Below are positions 1,869 through 58,690 of a stretch of DNA of 64,000 bases, piece after piece. How positions within the stretch are numbered: position 1 is the first letter of the stretch; each line of letters starts with the position of its first letter. A model generated the notes under the pieces. The model made no database searches, was not told the DNA's origin, and worked only from the letters and a program-made list of their open reading frames with translations. This DNA is from Rhodothermales bacterium (GTDB taxonomy: Bacteria; Bacteroidota; Rhodothermia; Rhodothermales; Bin80): the NCBI GenBank assembly GCA_958296045.1, contig CATQHT010000002.1, forward strand, positions 620,001 to 684,000. The letters are read 5' to 3'. The position numbers and the translations under genes were made by a program.

Positions 1869-2726
1869 CGGTTCCATGGAGCCGTCGCGAGCGCTTAGCC
1901 GTCGCGGCGGGCTCTGCCCTTACCTAGTGCTGATCCAGATGAGATACTCGCACCCAATAGTGGATCTGAGCGCCTATGACGGCCTGCAGCGTCCATGGAA
2001 CAGGTTGATCGCGATACCGCCGAGCAGAAAGGTCGGTTCACCGGGAGTCTGTCCGGTGTCTCCGAGCTGTTCAGGCCGTCTGCCGAAGCATCGGGTCAAC
2101 AAGCAGCGGAATTGCGGATTCCCGCGTCAACATGCCCAGCAAAATCCCTTGAGAACGCAGCAGCTCCTTAGTGGTTCCATGGAGCCGTCGCGAGCGGCTA
2201 GCGGTCGCAGCGGGTCTGCCCTTACCTAGTGCTGATCCAGATGAGATACTCGCACCCAATAGTGGATCTGAGCGCCTATGACGGCCTACAGCGTCCATGG
2301 AACAGGTTGATCGCGATACCGCCGAGCCGAAAGGCCGGTTCACCGGGAGTTTGTCCGACGTCTCCGAGCTGTTCATGCCGTCTGCCGAAGCATCGGGTCA
2401 ACAAGCAGCGGATTTGCGGATTCCCGCGTCAACATGACCAGCAAAATTTGCCGAGAACGCAGCGGCTCCTTAGTGGTTCCATGGGGTCGTCGCGAGCGGC
2501 TAGCGGTCGCAGCGGGTCTGCCCTTACCTAGTGCTGATCCAGATGAGATACTCGCACCCAATAGTGGATCTGAGCGCCTATGACGGCCTGCAGCGTCCAT
2601 GGAACAGGTTGATCGCGATACCGCCGAGCATACAGCTTCGTTCACCGGGAGTCTGTCCGGTGTCTTCGAGCTGTTCATGCCGTCTGCCGAAGCATCGGGT
2701 CAATAAGCTGCGGAATTGTGGATTCC
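1868..2726 (+). repeat. 302-bp tandem repeat, about 2.8 copies
   Basis: The string TACCTAGTGCTGATCCAGAT begins at 1921, 2223 and 2525, a period of exactly 302 bp both times. Copies start near 1868, 2170 and 2472; the third is cut off near 2726, where istB-like DNA begins. The copies differ by scattered substitutions. Each contains GTGGATCTGAGCGCCTAT, which is also the 3' end of istA (VDLSAY), so the unit seems to be built from the end of an istA copy plus non-coding DNA. The period is 2 modulo 3, so no reading frame runs through it; open frames of about 100 codons inside it are by-products of repetition. Confidence 0.85.
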
Positions 2727-3230
2727 CGCTGGAGAAGATCTCGGGGGTCTGTGATCAAACGCGGCCGCCCACTCGCATCCATCATGACCTGAGCGTGTAC
2801 TTGGAAGGCGGCTGCCGGGACCAGGGAGCACACAGGACCCCCTTCAGTCCACCGAACAGCGGTGAGATGTCCTTGCTGTGTTCTGGGTTGCACGGTTCCG
2901 GATCGCCGTATGATGCTCAGGGACACGTGAGAAAGGCGCTTACGACGGTCTCAGCCCGGACACCCTGGTACGCCTCCAGCACAGGCGAGAGCGCACCGAG
3001 GGCCTGTACGATGGCTACAGAGACCGCACGAAAGCGATCCCGCGAGGAAACGGTATCGACCAAACGGGGCAGCCTACGAACCACCCGCCCCGTTGCCTTC
3101 AGCCAGCCGGAAACCAACGGCACGCCTATGGTGGGGGTGACGGCCGCCCTAAACAGGCTCCAGCAGCACTACCACAGCGGATGACTGGAAGCCTCCAACC
3201 AACGCCAATCAAACAAGGAAATACCTGAAT
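2727..3230 (+). pseudogene. scrambled istB remnant
   Basis: Three pieces of this stretch resemble istB, but out of order. About 2727-2895 matches the middle of IstB (residues near 72-128), reading PLEK...IHHDLSVYLEGG and then PPNSGEM where the Walker A motif should be, with the catalytic Lys lost. About 2930-3050 resembles the N-terminus, with YDGYRDR for MRDGYRDR. About 3150-3225 resembles the C-terminus; DNA near GACTGGAAGCCTCCAA parallels GACTGGAAGCATCCAG at the end of the intact gene. No single frame spans it. It is the remains of a second, older IS21 copy. Confidence 0.75.
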
Positions 3231-3410: not shown

Positions 3411-4897
3411 GGCTTAGCCAATTCCCCTTTCTCGTGAGCGGTTCCGTGAAAATCATGTGAACTCCAGTCACATATCGCCCGTTCGGTTGCAAGTGTCCGT
3501 GCTACACCAGTGGGTGAGCTCACCTGCAGACGCTTTCGGGGTATAGATCCAGGCCTCCGAGGTGAAAGTAAATGGCATTGGCAAATCGCCGTTTGTTGCG
3601 GAAGCCGCTACAGCGCACTTTGATTGTTTTGATCCGGCTGTTGATGCTTTCCACAGGGCCATTGCTCACCTTCAGGATGATCGCAGTGAGGATACCCCAT
3701 AGGTGATTCTTGATGGTCCTGGCGGCTGCTTCTACCGGTTTCAGCCGACACCGCATGGCCCACATCAACCATCGCTCCCACCCCTCAGGCGCCCATGGGC
3801 GGTGGACACGGTGCCACAATTGAATAGCCGCTTCCTTGATGGCCCACGCGCGGGCCGTCTTCAGCGTGCTGGTACGCAACTGCTCGAAGCGCGCCTTCTG
3901 CTTGGCAGACTTGTTGACCGAGTGAGTCAACCAATCATACTTAGTTCCCTTAAGGTCGTCGCGGCCTTCCTTCATCAATGCCCAGTGCTCCTGGCGCCGA
4001 ACCTTGTGTACGGCAGTTCCCAGGCTCTTCACTACGTGAAACTTGTCAAAGGCCACCTTCCGCTGCGCCTCTGGTACATGCTGCAGCGTGGCGTTGATGT
4101 AGGCTGGCCACATGTCCATGCTAACACTCTCGATCCCCTCCAGCTGCTCCACAGTGAGTCCAGCATACCATTGCGAAAGTGTTTCTTTCTTACGGTCTTC
4201 GCCCACATGCAGCACCGTACCCGCCTTTGCATCCGAAAAAAATGGTGACATTCGTGTGGCACTTGCGAAAAGAGGGCTCATCCGTGCCAATATGGGCCAC
4301 ATCGGATTCCTCTCTGCGCGCAAGACCGCGTTGCACCGCACGCTGCATGATCCCATCTATCGCATTCCAACTCACCTTCATCAGACGAGATACCGCCGAT
4401 ATGCTCGCCTCCTGCAGCCAATCAATCACCAGCGCCTCAAACTCCGCCGTATACCGTGACATAGGCTCCGCCCACGGAACCGGCACGGTGCGCACTCCAT
4501 GCTTTGAACACGCCATGCGGGGAAGTAGCACAACCGCCATAGTGCGATACCCGCACAGATCCAGGTGGCGCCATTACCGACGACGGTGATCGTAGCCCGG
4601 AGACGGTGAGCCGCACTCTGGACAAGGAAGCTGATGGCCGTCCTCGTAGGATACATGGATCCACGCTTCTCGCGCCTCATGGTCAAAGGTCACGTCGGAA
4701 ACCTCCCAGGGAGCACGGATGCCCAAAAGACAAGCGATATTTTTCTTCAGTTGCGACATATCATGGATGGAGTTGGAAAACATGGGTACCATCGCGATGA
4801 TGGCCTAGAAACAAGCCAGAAACGACAACGAATCCGTATCACCCGAAATCGTTTCCCGGTGGTTACAACATCATACCATCCAATCAGGGGAAGAGCC
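3411..4897 (-). mobile_element. degenerate ISL3-family insertion sequence
   Basis: The element is defined by its broken transposase and by a right-hand end at 4880-4897, which reads GGCTCTTCCCCTGATTGG on the minus strand, a typical ISL3 terminal sequence. On the left only GGCT at 3411 and a nearby CCCC tract resemble it, so the left end is uncertain. It abuts the IS21 end at 3407 almost directly. I could not identify a target duplication. Confidence 0.5.
3520..4792 (-). pseudogene. ISL3-family transposase, broken by a stop and a frameshift
   Basis: The N-terminal piece (4574-4792) has the zinc-ribbon start CPECGSPSPGYDHRRR. It ends at an in-frame TAA at 4574-4576, and the same frame resumes with WRHLDLCGYRTM and CSKHGVRTVPVPWAEP, the usual second Cys/His pair of ISL3. 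Near 4240 the frame shifts, and the DDE domain continues to 3520 with MDMWPAYINA, FDKFHVVKSLG and GPVESINSRIKTIKVRCSGF, all strong ISL3 signatures. The rejoined protein would be about 420 residues, normal for the family. With two lesions it should be inactive. Confidence 0.85.
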
Positions 4898-5803
4898 AAG
4901 AATTAATGGGGAGACCTAGCCCGTTGCGTACGCGGCAGCGGCGATTGCTTCCGAGCTGAAAGCGCTGCAGGCCCGGGAGTTGGACCGGTCGACCTCCCTA
5001 GCGCTTGCCCATAGTGCGCAGCGATTCGTGGCGAGCACGTTCGAAGGCGAAAATGCCCTGTCCATCACCGAGGTAGCAATTGATTTGACCGCTCGTTAGC
5101 GAAGTACATGCGGAAAAGATCGACGCCACAGTGTGCCACTGCAAACCGCTGACACCTTCAGCCGACCACCATGCCGCGCCCAGTTCCAAGCCGCCAATGC
5201 ACTCGAGCGCCAGTGCCACGTCCTCTCTGATTGTACGCTGTGTACTTCGCCTGAATTAAACGCGCTCTACGGGACGGTTACAGATCAATGCCAACGATGG
5301 ACTGTCGCGATCTTCATGTGCTTCGACTCGCACTACGCCGTATAGTGAAGCCGAATCACTTGAAAACAATGGAGGCGGCGCTTACGTATGAGGTCCACCA
5401 GAGACGACAATATGCTTCTGCAGTCCAAATCTGCTTTCCGAGCAACAAAGAATGAAGCAACCCCTTCGATTCCAGCCCCTCCATTATCGCGCCCGGCTCC
5501 TGATATGCGGTACACTGACCGCCCATTCTTTCAGCGGCTTCATGAATGATGCCGTGACGCAATCCTCATCTGGCTACAGATGCTGTGCTCTGGTATGACC
5601 GTGATCGTGTTGGTGATGCTTCGGGAGCAGTGTCCATGAGGACCTTGGTCCGTCGTTGCGCTGAATCTCTCGTGGCGGCCAAGCCTCTGGATTAGAGTGC
5701 CACTGAACGCATTCTTGCGCCAGAATTGCTATCTTGCGTGAAATCTGGCGCTCTGTAGCCGATGAAACTCCGATCTTCCCTGTAACCACGCTTCCTTAAC
5801 GCC
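4898..5803. other. gene-free stretch, possible trace of an integrase
   Basis: No convincing gene is visible. On the plus strand around 5240-5343 a short reading, WTVAIFMCFDSHYAV, loosely recalls the integrase core of IS3/IS481-like transposases, but stops and shifts surround it and no catalytic set can be assembled. I treat it as probable insertion-sequence debris of unknown type. Confidence 0.35.
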
Positions 5804-6937
5804 ATGTCAGAACACCAATACTACGAGTTCATAGCCGTCGACCGGCCACTTTCCGACGAGGATCGGGCCACGTTACGGAAAATGTCGAGCCGGGCGCAGA
5901 TAACCACTGGAAGCTTTGTAAACCATTACAACTGGAGTGACTTCAGAGGGGATCCAATGGAGCTTATGAGGCGGTGGTTTGATTTGCATCTGTATTGGGC
6001 CAACTGGGGAACGCGGCGGTTCGTAGTTCGGATTCCCACTCGCTACGCAGATCATAACGTGCTAGAGGCGTTCAAGAATAACATAGGTCTGCTTACCATC
6101 AGCGAGTTTGACGACCACCTGATCCTTGACATCCATGGCGATGGCGAGCAGCCGGATTACTACGAGGATGTGGAAAACATACCAAGCTCGTTGAGTCAGC
6201 TGGCCCCGCTGCGCCAGGAACTCTTGTCGGGTGATCTGACCGCGCTGTATCTCGTTTGGCTTGAGAGTGTGGCATCCGGCGCGGTACCTGATGAGGCTGA
6301 GGAACCATTACCAGGAATCGGTCGGTTGTCCCCTGCGGCGCAGACTCTCGCCAGATTCTTTCTTGTTGACAGCGAACTGATTGAAGCCGCAGTTCACGAA
6401 AGCTTAGCATTCGGGCCCAGCGCAACTGAACTGCAGTCCGCAGTGCAGTCGCTGCCGCGTTCTGAAATCAATGCGCTGCTCGTTAAGTTTGCCAGCCGTG
6501 ATCCTTATGCGGAGGCAGAATTGCGCAAAATGATTCTGGCTAGGGCCGCGTCGTTGCAAGGCGCCAAAACGCGGCGTACCGCGGCGCAACTTCGAGCCAA
6601 GGCAGAAGCGATCAGGGCTGCCCACAGAGCTGAGGCTGCGAGAAAGGAGGAACAAGAGAGAAAGCGCCGCGAACGTAAGGAAGCCGAAGCACGTGCAATT
6701 CGTGTAGCGGAATTGAAGGAAGCCGGAGAGAAGGCATGGGACGAGGTAGAAGAGAATATCAACCTCAGAAACGCCAAGGGATACCAGTGGGCGGCGAGCC
6801 TGCTGGATGATTTGCGCGCATTGGCTGAGTCCGAAGGTACGCTCGCGGAGTTCTCTGATAGGTTGGCCAATGTGCGTGATGAACACGCCAGAAAGAGAAA
6901 CTTTATGAAGCAGCTGGCCGCACGTGCTCTCAAATAG
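5804..6937 (+). CDS. uncharacterised protein with charged coiled-coil C-terminal half
   Basis: The 377-residue product begins MSEHQYYEFIAVDRPLSDED. It has an N-terminal globular region (about 1-200) rich in aromatic and acidic residues (GDPMELMRRWFDLHLYWANWGTRR). A linker region follows (about 200-250), then a long Arg/Lys/Glu/Ala-rich segment (about 255-330), which predicts a coiled coil. There is no signal peptide or membrane segment, so it should be cytoplasmic. From memory this resembles a widespread family of hypothetical proteins sometimes found beside SWIM zinc-finger proteins; no such neighbour is here. It stands alone between insertion sequences, with a hairpin downstream. No function can be assigned. 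Confidence 0.85.
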   Translation: MSEHQYYEFIAVDRPLSDEDRATLRKMSSRAQITTGSFVNHYNWSDFRGDPMELMRRWFDLHLYWANWGTRRFVVRIPTRYADHNVLEAFKNNIGLLTISEFDDHLILDIHGDGEQPDYYEDVENIPSSLSQLAPLRQELLSGDLTALYLVWLESVASGAVPDEAEEPLPGIGRLSPAAQTLARFFLVDSELIEAAVHESLAFGPSATELQSAVQSLPRSEINALLVKFASRDPYAEAELRKMILARAASLQGAKTRRTAAQLRAKAEAIRAAHRAEAARKEEQERKRRERKEAEARAIRVAELKEAGEKAWDEVEENINLRNAKGYQWAASLLDDLRALAESEGTLAEFSDRLANVRDEHARKRNFMKQLAARALK

Positions 6938-18928: not shown

Positions 18929-19089
18929 TGCGCTTCACAGTGGCTGTTGCAGCAGTCAGGCGGCACCGGCTTCTGGCTTCTCGGGGGCCTCAGGTGGCGC
19001 CAGCCGAACATAGGGTGGACCAATCAATCGCGCCGATATTGGCCACACCCACCAGCATGCTGGCTATCTCTCCCACTTAATGTTATAAA

Positions 19090-20150
19090 CGACTTAACAA
19101 CGGAGCTTACATCCGTTACCTCGCGGACATGCAGGGGCAACTTGGGATCTTGGTGTGCGAGAGAAGCCGCTTGGTCGATGCGCGTGGCAAGAAGCGGCTG
19201 GCGGGCTGCATGAAGGCACTCAGGGTGCTGCATTCTGAAGACCAGATAGCATTGCCTCCGTCACAGGTGAAGCTTCAAATCGCCCAGCCGCGGCTATTGG
19301 ATGCCCCGGTAGGGCGGTGGATGTTTCGGCTGATGTGCGTCAGATCGAGGATCTTGAGATCGTCCGTGTAGAAAACCCACAAGATCGCGCCATCTGGACC
19401 ACGCTTATGGACCACGAGCATCCGCAGGGGGTGACCACCTGTGCGGGAGCATAGATGCGCTACCTGATTAAGAGCGCCCACGGTTCTCTGGGGCCGTCGG
19501 TTTCTCTGCCGCTGCGCGTTATCTCATGGCGCGGGCCCAGTGGATGGCCTGGAGTCATGAGCAGCGCAGCGACCATCTTAAGCGCGTAGTTAACCTGGGT
19601 TGTTTTCTGATTCGCCCAGGTGTTCGGTGCAAGAATCTGGCGAGCTTCGTGCTGGGTCGCGCGTTTCTGTGATTGCCCTCCGACTTCAGGGCCCGGTACA
19701 AGTATGTACGTTACGTGGTGGAGACCTTTGTGGGTCCGCGTTACGAGGGTACGTGTTTCAAGGCAGCAGGCTTCCAATAATTGGGTCTCACCCAGGGGTG
19801 CGGTTGGCATGCACCGAACGGTGTAAGAAAGTGTTCACGGAAGAAGGTATTCGCATATGAACTGGACCCTGCGTGGCGCGAGCTGCTGTGCGTACCACAC
19901 GTGGAATTGCGACCCCGGCTCGAGGTGGGCGCTGGGCTGGCCAGCGACTCTTGGGCGGAACAGGAATTTGGCGGTGTAGCGTTGGGCGAATTCTGGTCGG
20001 ATCACGCACAAGGGCCGTTCGAAGCGTAATGCACGCATGGAGGTGCGTTTTCGCCAGGTGACGCTGCCAGCAACAGGCGGGTTTTTCGAATGTCCCGTCA
20101 AGGTCTCTGCGGTCCACGTTCGTGAGATAGCGCCGCCCAAAGGTGCAGGG
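19090..20150 (+). pseudogene. dead transposase with DruA (DUF4338) domain fused to IS4-type domain
   Basis: Pieces of one long protein can be followed on the plus strand through several stops and shifts. They run from MQGQLGIL and GCMKALRVLHSEDQIALP at about 19129-19260, then MRYLIKSAHGSLG near 19455, and YVVETF...EGTCFKAAGF near 19700-19780. KVFAYELDPAWRELL follows near 19845, then an IS4/Tn5-like DNA-binding start WAEQEFGGVALG near 19955, and finally VSAVHVREIAPPKG near 20115, a segment of IS4 transposase catalytic domains. The first half matches the DUF4338 domain shared with the Druantia protein DruA. The remnant stops just before the aminotransferase gene end. A second, partial copy is at 58180. 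Confidence 0.72.
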
Positions 20151-44272: not shown

Positions 44273-44786
44273 GGTCTACCTCCATCTTTTACGGTGCATG
44301 GAATTGTGGTGCTGCGGTCCGTCCTGGCTCTGCCGCCTAGCGCTGCCCAGTATTTACCCTAGTAGCTGAGTCCTCAAGGTGCATAGGGCGGGCACAGCTT
44401 GGCCCTCAGCCACGCGGTTACCTGACAAGTAGCATAGCCCTCGTAGCGGGAGGCCGGAGCTTCACGCAAGAGGCGAATTTCACGCTGTGCTAAGTGGTAG
44501 ACGCGAAAGGTCAAGGCCCTGCGCGTAGCGGGCGTGGGTCAAGGGTGTATGCGTCGACCGCGATGGACGCGTGCACCCCCTCACATTGCGGGCATACACA
44601 TCTGGCTCGGTATTGCGAAGCGTTTGCAAGATCCCGAGTTGCCCCTGCATGCCCGAAAGGGAACGGATGCAAACGCCGTTGTCTAGAAGTACCAAAACTA
44701 GATGGGAGACCTAGCGGGAACCCGCCCATCGGATAGCCGCCTCCAGTGGGACTTCACGGGATCCCAAGCCCATGTGGCGAAGCATT
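44273..44786. other. intergenic region between two glycan gene units
   Basis: No gene seen. It must hold the promoter of the DUF6786/GH116 pair and the end of the long upstream unit, plus a fragment of a DruA-type element near 44628-44690. No clear promoter boxes were picked out. Confidence 0.5.
44628..44690 (-). repeat. 60-bp fragment of the DruA-type element 5' end
   Basis: On the minus strand this stretch matches 19090-19151: the segment CATGCAGGGGCAACTCGGGA and flanks agree at 23 of 24 positions, and weaker agreement continues upstream (CAACGG...CATCCGTT). The codons read GMQGQLGIL as in the larger remnant. Downstream similarity stops, so only the start of the element remains here. Confidence 0.6.
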
Positions 44787-58179: not shown

Positions 58180-58690
58180 CTGGAGGGCGTATATGGGTGG
58201 CCAGTTTGGCTTTTTCGATGTGCGTGGCCGCAATCAGCGCTCCCCCTGCATGAAAGCATTGCGAGTGCTGGAAGCCGAATGGCACATTACGCTCCCGCAG
58301 CCACAGCGCATGCCGCGTTCCTTTGGGCCACGCCTGTTGGAGGCACCGGTGCCGGAGGCGGTGGATGTGCCTGCGGATGTGCGACAGATCAAGGATCTGA
58401 AGGTCGCCGTGGTGGAGCGTGCAGAGGATGTGCGCTTTGGAACACGCTGATGGATCGGCAGCATCCGCGGGGGACGACCATCTTTGCAGGGGCACAGCTG
58501 CGCTATCTGATAAAGAGCGCCCACGGCTATCTCGGGGCGGTCGGCTCTTGCGCCGCTGCGCTGTATCTGAAGCCCCGGGACGCGTGGATGCCGCGCGGCC
58601 TGAGGTACTTGGAGCCGGGCATGCTTCGCCGTGGGACAGGGTCACGCTATGATGATCGCCTGAACCCGGTCCTTCACTCACCTTGTGGCC
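58180..58690 (+). pseudogene. second DruA-domain transposase remnant
   Basis: Two frames on the plus strand rebuild part of the same protein as the remnant at 19090. MGGQFGFFDVRGRNQRSPCMKALRVLEAEWHITLP comes first (58190-58300). After a shift near 58435, TLMDRQHPRGTTIFAGAQLR and YLIKSAHGYLGAVGSCAAAL follow, then LKPRDAWMP. The latter is the best-preserved core of the DUF4338/DruA domain. The IS4-type half is missing. The copy ends where the glycosyltransferase remnant begins. Confidence 0.7.

Follow-up and report, generated by a model that had tools for sequence, protein, structure and literature searches.

DruA-transposase remnants within the window

Within the window, that is the whole 64-kb stretch of DNA analysed here, sequences of an element in which a DruA (DUF4338, PF14236) domain is joined to a Tn5-type transposase were located at three places, with the following features.

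19070..20148, + strand: remnant of a family A DruA-Tn5 element (blastn against an intact family A element, left end and flank)
19481..19825, + strand: DruA (PF14236) match within this remnant, frame broken (E 1.2e-14, 54.9 bits, above cut-off)
19986..20147, + strand: Tn5-type catalytic piece, residues 563-616 of the intact protein (tblastn 88.9% identity, E 2e-22)
44343..44708, - strand: family A derivative of 366 bp, non-autonomous (MITE-like), with an internal deletion and both ends kept (blastn, ends read)
58184..58590, + strand: N-terminal and DruA fragment, diverged, from a family A-like element (residues 50-135 and 137-189 of P0004 by tblastn)

The longest copy starts with a left end at 19070, next to the flank GGCTATCT, and still contains the N-terminal segment and DruA, followed by the first portion of the Tn5-type DNA-binding part and a catalytic piece, while its right end is absent and the sequence is cut off at 20148. 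When aligned by blastn to an intact family A element, element positions 412-1253 correspond to 19151-19987 (89% nucleotide identity, 842 bases) and positions 1930-2094 to 19984-20148 (92% identity), the element stretch in between (1253|1930, about 680 bases) being deleted at a junction at 19984-19987. The DruA match was obtained unaided in a six-frame search of the genome (C2:639481-639825) and has one TGA and one TAA inside. Using the intact protein as query, tblastn recovered the frame pieces as four stretches in three frames over 19087-20147, covering residues 7-109, 112-171, 169-338 and 563-616 at 56-89% identity. The 366-bp derivative consists of element positions 31-121 (44686-44596) and 2656-2928 (44599-44337) and is flanked by an imperfect 8-bp duplication, CGCTAGGT / CGCTAGGC. 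The fragment at 58184-58590 matches family A at 75.8% nucleotide identity along 265 bases, and its PF14236 match (E 1.2e-4) is under the Pfam cut-off.

The proposal of the initial annotation that DruA is joined here to an IS4/Tn5-type DNA-binding and catalytic region is borne out by the domain matches. Its decayed copy at 19090-20150 is real, but the left end lies at 19070 rather than at 19090. What it had taken for a 60-bp piece at 44628-44690 is also a real copy, but larger, since it forms part of the 366-bp element with both ends, and the copy that it had placed at 58180-58690 is retained as the diverged fragment described above.

The element family in the genome and its protein architecture

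In the 4.78-Mb genome that contains the window (G000), 41 DruA (PF14236) matches were found, 40 of them above the Pfam cut-off and 26 in open frames of 683-814 aa, and 42 stretches were taken for analysis. The whole-genome search for an intact copy with inverted repeats, which the initial annotation had suggested, revealed intact copies in three subfamilies, A (represented by protein P0001), B (P0002) and C (P0003). Two family A copies, L009 and L010, share 99.9% identity across 2,933 bases and lie at different sites, indicating recent movement. The window copies are therefore members of a large bacterial insertion-sequence family with recent activity; the initial annotation had the family dying out in this genome, but more than half of the DruA matches lie in long open frames and near-identical copies occupy different sites. 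Elements measure 2676 bp in family A (2915 bp with a duplicated left end), 2546 bp in family B and either 3269 bp or 2724 bp (L028) in family C. In three family A copies (L009, L010 and L011) the left end is repeated in tandem over 237 bp (92.8% identity), a feature common to copies that moved with the outer end. The longer, 3269-bp C elements (for example L024:160-740) contain a reversed fragment of a Mutator-type (PF00872) transposase near the right end (E 2.5e-16), a fragment that L028 does not have.

Intact proteins of all three subfamilies have the same order, a conserved N-terminal segment of about 85 residues followed by DruA and by a complete Tn5-type transposase, and each is encoded in a single open frame with no frameshift. 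In P0001, DruA covers residues 121-277, Tnp_DNA_bind 324-378, DDE_Tnp_1 413-677 and Dimer_Tnp_Tn5 681-761, with a like arrangement in B and C; the Tnp_DNA_bind match is under cut-off in P0001 and above it in C. PF14236 matches intact copies with E 1e-19 to 1e-27 (70-100 bits against a cut-off of 27), and all 10 rows of the DruA alignment A2 are above the cut-off, while NF033590, the IS4 model of NCBIfam, gives 272-287 bits, its cut-off being 160 (E ~1e-80 to 1e-85). Residues 323-765 align to residues 14-463 of the solved Tn5 transposase in the PDB (E 4e-37), and hence a whole Tn5-type transposase lies downstream of the DruA part. Its catalytic residues are intact in A (D413/D502/E649), B (D393/D485/E625) and C (D403/D495/E641), along with the Y-2-R-3-E-6-K signature. 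The roughly 85 residues preceding DruA are conserved in the fused proteins and also in the separate druA genes of L044 and L052; in P0001, P0002 and P0003 this segment gave no Pfam match at E 0.1, and a helix-turn-helix would be a guess. At the left ends of L009 and L019 a TTGACA/TTGGCA-like box, read by eye, lies some 30 bases upstream of the start codon (ATG) of the fused gene, and the leader could accordingly be very short.

Selection was estimated as dN/dS by the Nei-Gojobori method on 11 fused ORFs from six genomes, where many of the 55 pairs were saturated and gave no value. For pairs with unsaturated dS, the ratio was 0.13-0.39 in the DruA part and 0.11-0.46 in the Tn5 part, so that, judged from these sequences, purifying selection on the DruA part is as strong as that on the transposase.

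Terminal repeats, target sites and insertion

Element ends were mapped in the 42 genomic stretches and in the window, and both ends could be placed in 23 copies (A 9, B 5 and C 9). The three subfamilies have terminal inverted repeats with CTGCC or CTCCC ends, and identical 8-bp flanks surround 13 of the 23 copies (A 5, B 3, C 5). In the remaining 10 the flanks differ, and among these are copies interrupted by other insertions (L018-C, L073 and L074). The sequence CTAG occupies positions 3-6 in 23 of 42 listed flanks and in 7 of the 13 duplicated ones, as compared to its occurrence at 76 of 63,997 positions of the window. A nested insertion was observed in L018: a C end is interrupted there by a B element that has GACTAGGT on either side, and the corresponding empty site is present as an uninterrupted stretch in 11 other C-end loci with 0-7 mismatches of 56. 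In another genus (G013), the fusion element L132 is flanked by the 8-bp duplication GGCTAGCC and has 12-bp ends with 3 mismatches. The spread of the DruA-transposase as a mobile element, which the initial annotation had also claimed, is borne out by these inverted repeats and target-site duplications.

These features resemble those of IS50/Tn5, with homology over the whole length of Tn5 transposase, DDE and YREK residues, 5'-CT ends and an 8-bp duplication; the IS50 subgroup of the IS4 family, which has 5'-CT/CA ends, is given an 8-9 bp target duplication in the accessible text of PMC2266710. However, at 2546-3269 bp the DruA elements exceed the 1350-1550 bp typical of the IS50 subgroup, and they differ further in the additional N-terminal module of about 320 residues that includes DruA and in the CTAG-like target.

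DruA joined to other transposases

DruA was also found with transposases of other families. A plasmid of Candidatus Thiodictyon syntrophicum (pTs417, L053) encodes a 444-aa protein with DruA at residues 18-171 and an ISAs1 transposase at 247-434, in an element (3847-5903) that has CAGGG-type ends with 3/14 mismatches and a 10-bp duplication, CCTCGCAGGC; the same DruA-ISAs1 fusion occurs in L045 (G350), with a frame break further on. Both transposases match the ISAs1 model NF033564, and the ends and duplication of L053 likewise recall the ISAs1 family, but DruA precedes the start of the complete ISAs1 model, at residue 247 of the L053 protein. On a second Thiodictyon plasmid (pTs485, L052), a separate druA gene has its stop overlapping the start of a Tn5-type transposase gene as ATGA (GCATGAGC), and the pair is inserted in a DUF2235 gene between 14-bp ends (1 mismatch) with the 9-bp duplication GGCCCTGGG. 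In the same locus (L052:4700-7250), a unit of an IS91-type transposase and an integrase interrupts the Tn5-type transposase gene of this two-gene element. A third arrangement is that of L124 (G199), in which a separate druA precedes, again with an ATGA overlap, a DDE_Tnp_1_assoc / weakly IS1380-like transposase, the pair lying between 16-bp inverted repeats (1 mismatch) on a contig that starts at one end. Across three transposase families DruA is always upstream of the transposase, fused or ATGA-overlapping. The CTAG preference is not general for DruA-linked elements, as the targets of the Thiodictyon two-gene element and the ISAs1 element demonstrate. A search for inverted repeats and target duplications on L125, L127, L128, L129, L130 and L131 found none.

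In the transposase tree, the fused Tn5-type proteins constitute one group (100/100) and the Thiodictyon one is placed with DruA-less Tn5-type transposases (99/98); no DruA was present in the vicinity of the six DruA-less loci used for comparison. A single clade for all DruA-linked Tn5-type transposases is rejected by the AU test (p-AU 0.0045, for a hypothesis framed after the tree had been seen). The split tree together with this rejection indicates that DruA was joined to, or lost from, Tn5-type transposases more than once. L046 was considered as a fourth transposase partner and rejected, since it has a truncated DruA facing a Transposase_29 ORF in convergent orientation, an arrangement better explained by an insertion. 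In L126 (G176; 323-2635 and 2531-3217), the DruA ORF breaks off after its first third and converges on a Transposase_29 (PF21804) ORF, so that a druA gene may have been hit by an insertion here.

Relationship of DruA to phage Mom and to Druantia

DUF4338 is described as a GNAT-like domain in the part of PMC10853773 that was available, and Mom, according to a portion of PMC7824862, adds an acyl group at N6 of adenine. The Pfam Mom model (PF25680) matches 7 of 10 transposon DruA domains (best E 7.2e-6), with all matches under the Pfam cut-off (the highest bit score listed is that of L045, 23.9 vs 27.1), and PHROG 1384, a Mom-like DNA modification protein family, matches the DruA of L052 (E 3e-5). 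When profiles were compared by hhalign, transposon DruA matched seven phage Mom proteins with E 3.9e-6 and five Druantia-type DruA proteins with E 9e-11, and no match was obtained between Mom and Druantia DruA (0.47). Since the transposon form matches both and these two do not match each other, it is placed between them.

At the level of residues, DruA aligns with phage Mu Mom and Mom-like proteins in the HY/HP motif, an arginine and the G..Y.A.NF.Y.G motif. Counted over 38 non-redundant DruA domains, the Mom-like histidine is kept in 34 of 38, the arginine in 36 of 36 and the glutamate of ETF in 33 of 33, and the glycine-rich motifs are strongly kept. In contrast, the column that holds D139 of Mom, a residue found in all of 7 Mom proteins, is not conserved, with D in 15 of 33 DruA domains, and Mom is not fused to a transposase. 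A PDB sequence search with the A2 DruA profile gave no match, and the fold of a stand-alone phage DruA (L054), predicted without an alignment, had a mean pLDDT of 36, so that the GNAT fold proposed for DruA rests on the consulted part of PMC10853773 and on sequence similarity. From the Mom matches and the kept residues a DNA-acting module is proposed: DruA is probably a Mom-like GNAT acting on DNA, with a chemistry that we infer, and catalysis would be the likelier of two close readings, the other being a role in binding or as a scaffold.

To our knowledge, no biochemical role is established for the DruA of Druantia. Its likeness to the transposon proteins is the same Pfam domain, found in the latter above cut-off; the difference is that the match of transposon DruA extends over no more than about positions 46-223 of the 297 in the model. 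The PADLOC DruA model matches one of three proteins of the window's genome (E 0.027), and Druantia partner genes (DruB-DruE) are absent within the A and B elements, which contain one long ORF and measure at most 2.9 kb. A true Druantia locus was considered for the window copies and rejected.

A DruA tree was built from 25 domains, leaving out three plasmid DruA proteins of greater length (L080, L081 and L084) and one of the four Mom rows (PAN70), and its root is not fixed. Druantia DruA forms a group (100/99), as do the ISAs1 fusions with the phage protein (98/97) and, weakly, the fused Tn5 proteins (84/81); two-gene forms are at the base with a branching that is not settled, and L098, a long row, grouped with Druantia, perhaps wrongly. 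With the root unfixed, Druantia DruA appears as a separate group on a long branch, next to the transposon DruA domains and not nested in one transposon lineage. That the DruA of Druantia descends from transposon DruA domains by domestication, an origin that the initial annotation had raised, is favoured by the intermediate position of the transposon form in the profile comparisons, but the placement of Druantia DruA beside a transposon lineage in this tree of unfixed root speaks against such a descent, and we regard it as rather unlikely.

Proposed role of the DruA module and alternative explanations

With modest confidence, we favour the reading that these elements are insertion sequences of IS50/Tn5 type, in which the N-terminal segment and DruA would serve as a portable transposition accessory, DruA being a GNAT-fold relative of phage Mom. 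They are cut-and-paste elements of the IS4 family, 2.5-3.3 kb long, encoding one protein with the order N-terminal segment, DruA and Tn5-type transposase. The transposase part would cut at the inverted repeats with CTGCC or CTCCC ends and insert with an 8-bp stagger at CTAG-like sites. The accessory module may work together with the transposase on DNA, binding and perhaps acylating, as a GNAT-fold Mom relative could, bases at the element ends, the target or a transposition intermediate. It would have been joined independently to other transposases, either as a fusion or as an upstream coupled gene, and DruA thus looks like a recurrent, reusable accessory module of transposases related to a phage DNA-modifying enzyme.

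A lesser possibility, somewhat on the unlikely side, is that DruA acts purely as an additional DNA-binding or protein-protein scaffold for end or target recognition or multimerisation, with no enzymatic function. The D139 column, where fewer than half of the DruA domains have an aspartate, would fit such a scaffold, as would the CTAG-like target common to this clade and the position of DruA immediately ahead of the Tn5 DNA-binding part within a single chain. However, the histidine, arginine, glutamate and glycine-rich motifs are kept beyond the apparent needs of binding, and DruA exists as a separate gene as well, both of which argue against a mere scaffold. Passenger genes in insertion sequences are known generally, and DruA might accordingly be captured cargo with a defence, toxin or counter-restriction function, fused by chance and without a role in transposition. 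DruA homologues do belong to Druantia defence systems, according to the accessible part of PMC8565338, and record annotations name them as Druantia. Against a passenger, the same upstream order recurs with three different transposase families, fused or overlapping, and the selection on DruA is as strong as that on the transposase. Moreover, the IS4 model has 56 matches in the window's genome, and among the long matches checked there that have no DruA in frame (L072-L077) no full-length Tn5-type copy without DruA was seen; they proved to be truncated copies, copies broken by other sequence or parts of elements of A, B or C, with L076 matching only a short B piece. Cargo of this kind is therefore quite improbable.

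The favoured accessory module could be taken further, in that a Mom-like DNA-modifying module, repeatedly joined to unrelated DDE transposases (Tn5-type at least twice, ISAs1 and an IS1380-like one), might put a chemical mark on the element ends or the target DNA while transposition takes place, with the DruA of Druantia drawn from this pool; we consider this wider proposal unlikely. No report of a DruA/DUF4338 or GNAT/Mom-like domain fused to a transposase was found in a literature search with thin coverage of subscription papers and with ISfinder outside its scope, which included the available parts of PMC10853773, PMC8565338, PMC12774648, PMC12458937, PMC7251935, PMC2266710 and PMC7824862. 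Intact and multiplying transposases that keep DruA under selection, together with a sequence path from DruA to Mom, would give DruA a concrete and testable role, that of acting on DNA, and would add another case of parts common to mobile elements and anti-phage defence.

Distribution

PF14236 was found in 10 of the 16 genomes of the window's family and in 9 of 395 genomes of a phylum sample. The A2 profile matched 14 of 244 genomes of the class, 12 of these within the 16 genomes of the family, and in another class 2 of 395 genomes, both weakly and to Druantia-type proteins of 403-404 aa. Recurrence in 12 of the 16 family genomes by A2, and in 10 by PF14236, led to the rejection of DruA as an assembly artefact. 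Five further genomes of this family (G001, G005, G008, G011 and G014) have fused frames of at least 690 aa, and among named relatives the closest is a contig of a Rhodothermales MAG (L042; 67% in the best segment, one genome contig matched). In plasmid searches with the DruA domain, only the two plasmids of Candidatus Thiodictyon syntrophicum were retrieved. The phage records searched with this domain gave no match, and the viral contigs, from a thin wider sampling, gave one, IMGVR_UViG_3300010938_000097 (L054). This phage contig encodes at 4977-5558 a stand-alone DruA domain of 193 aa, which groups with the ISAs1-linked ones.
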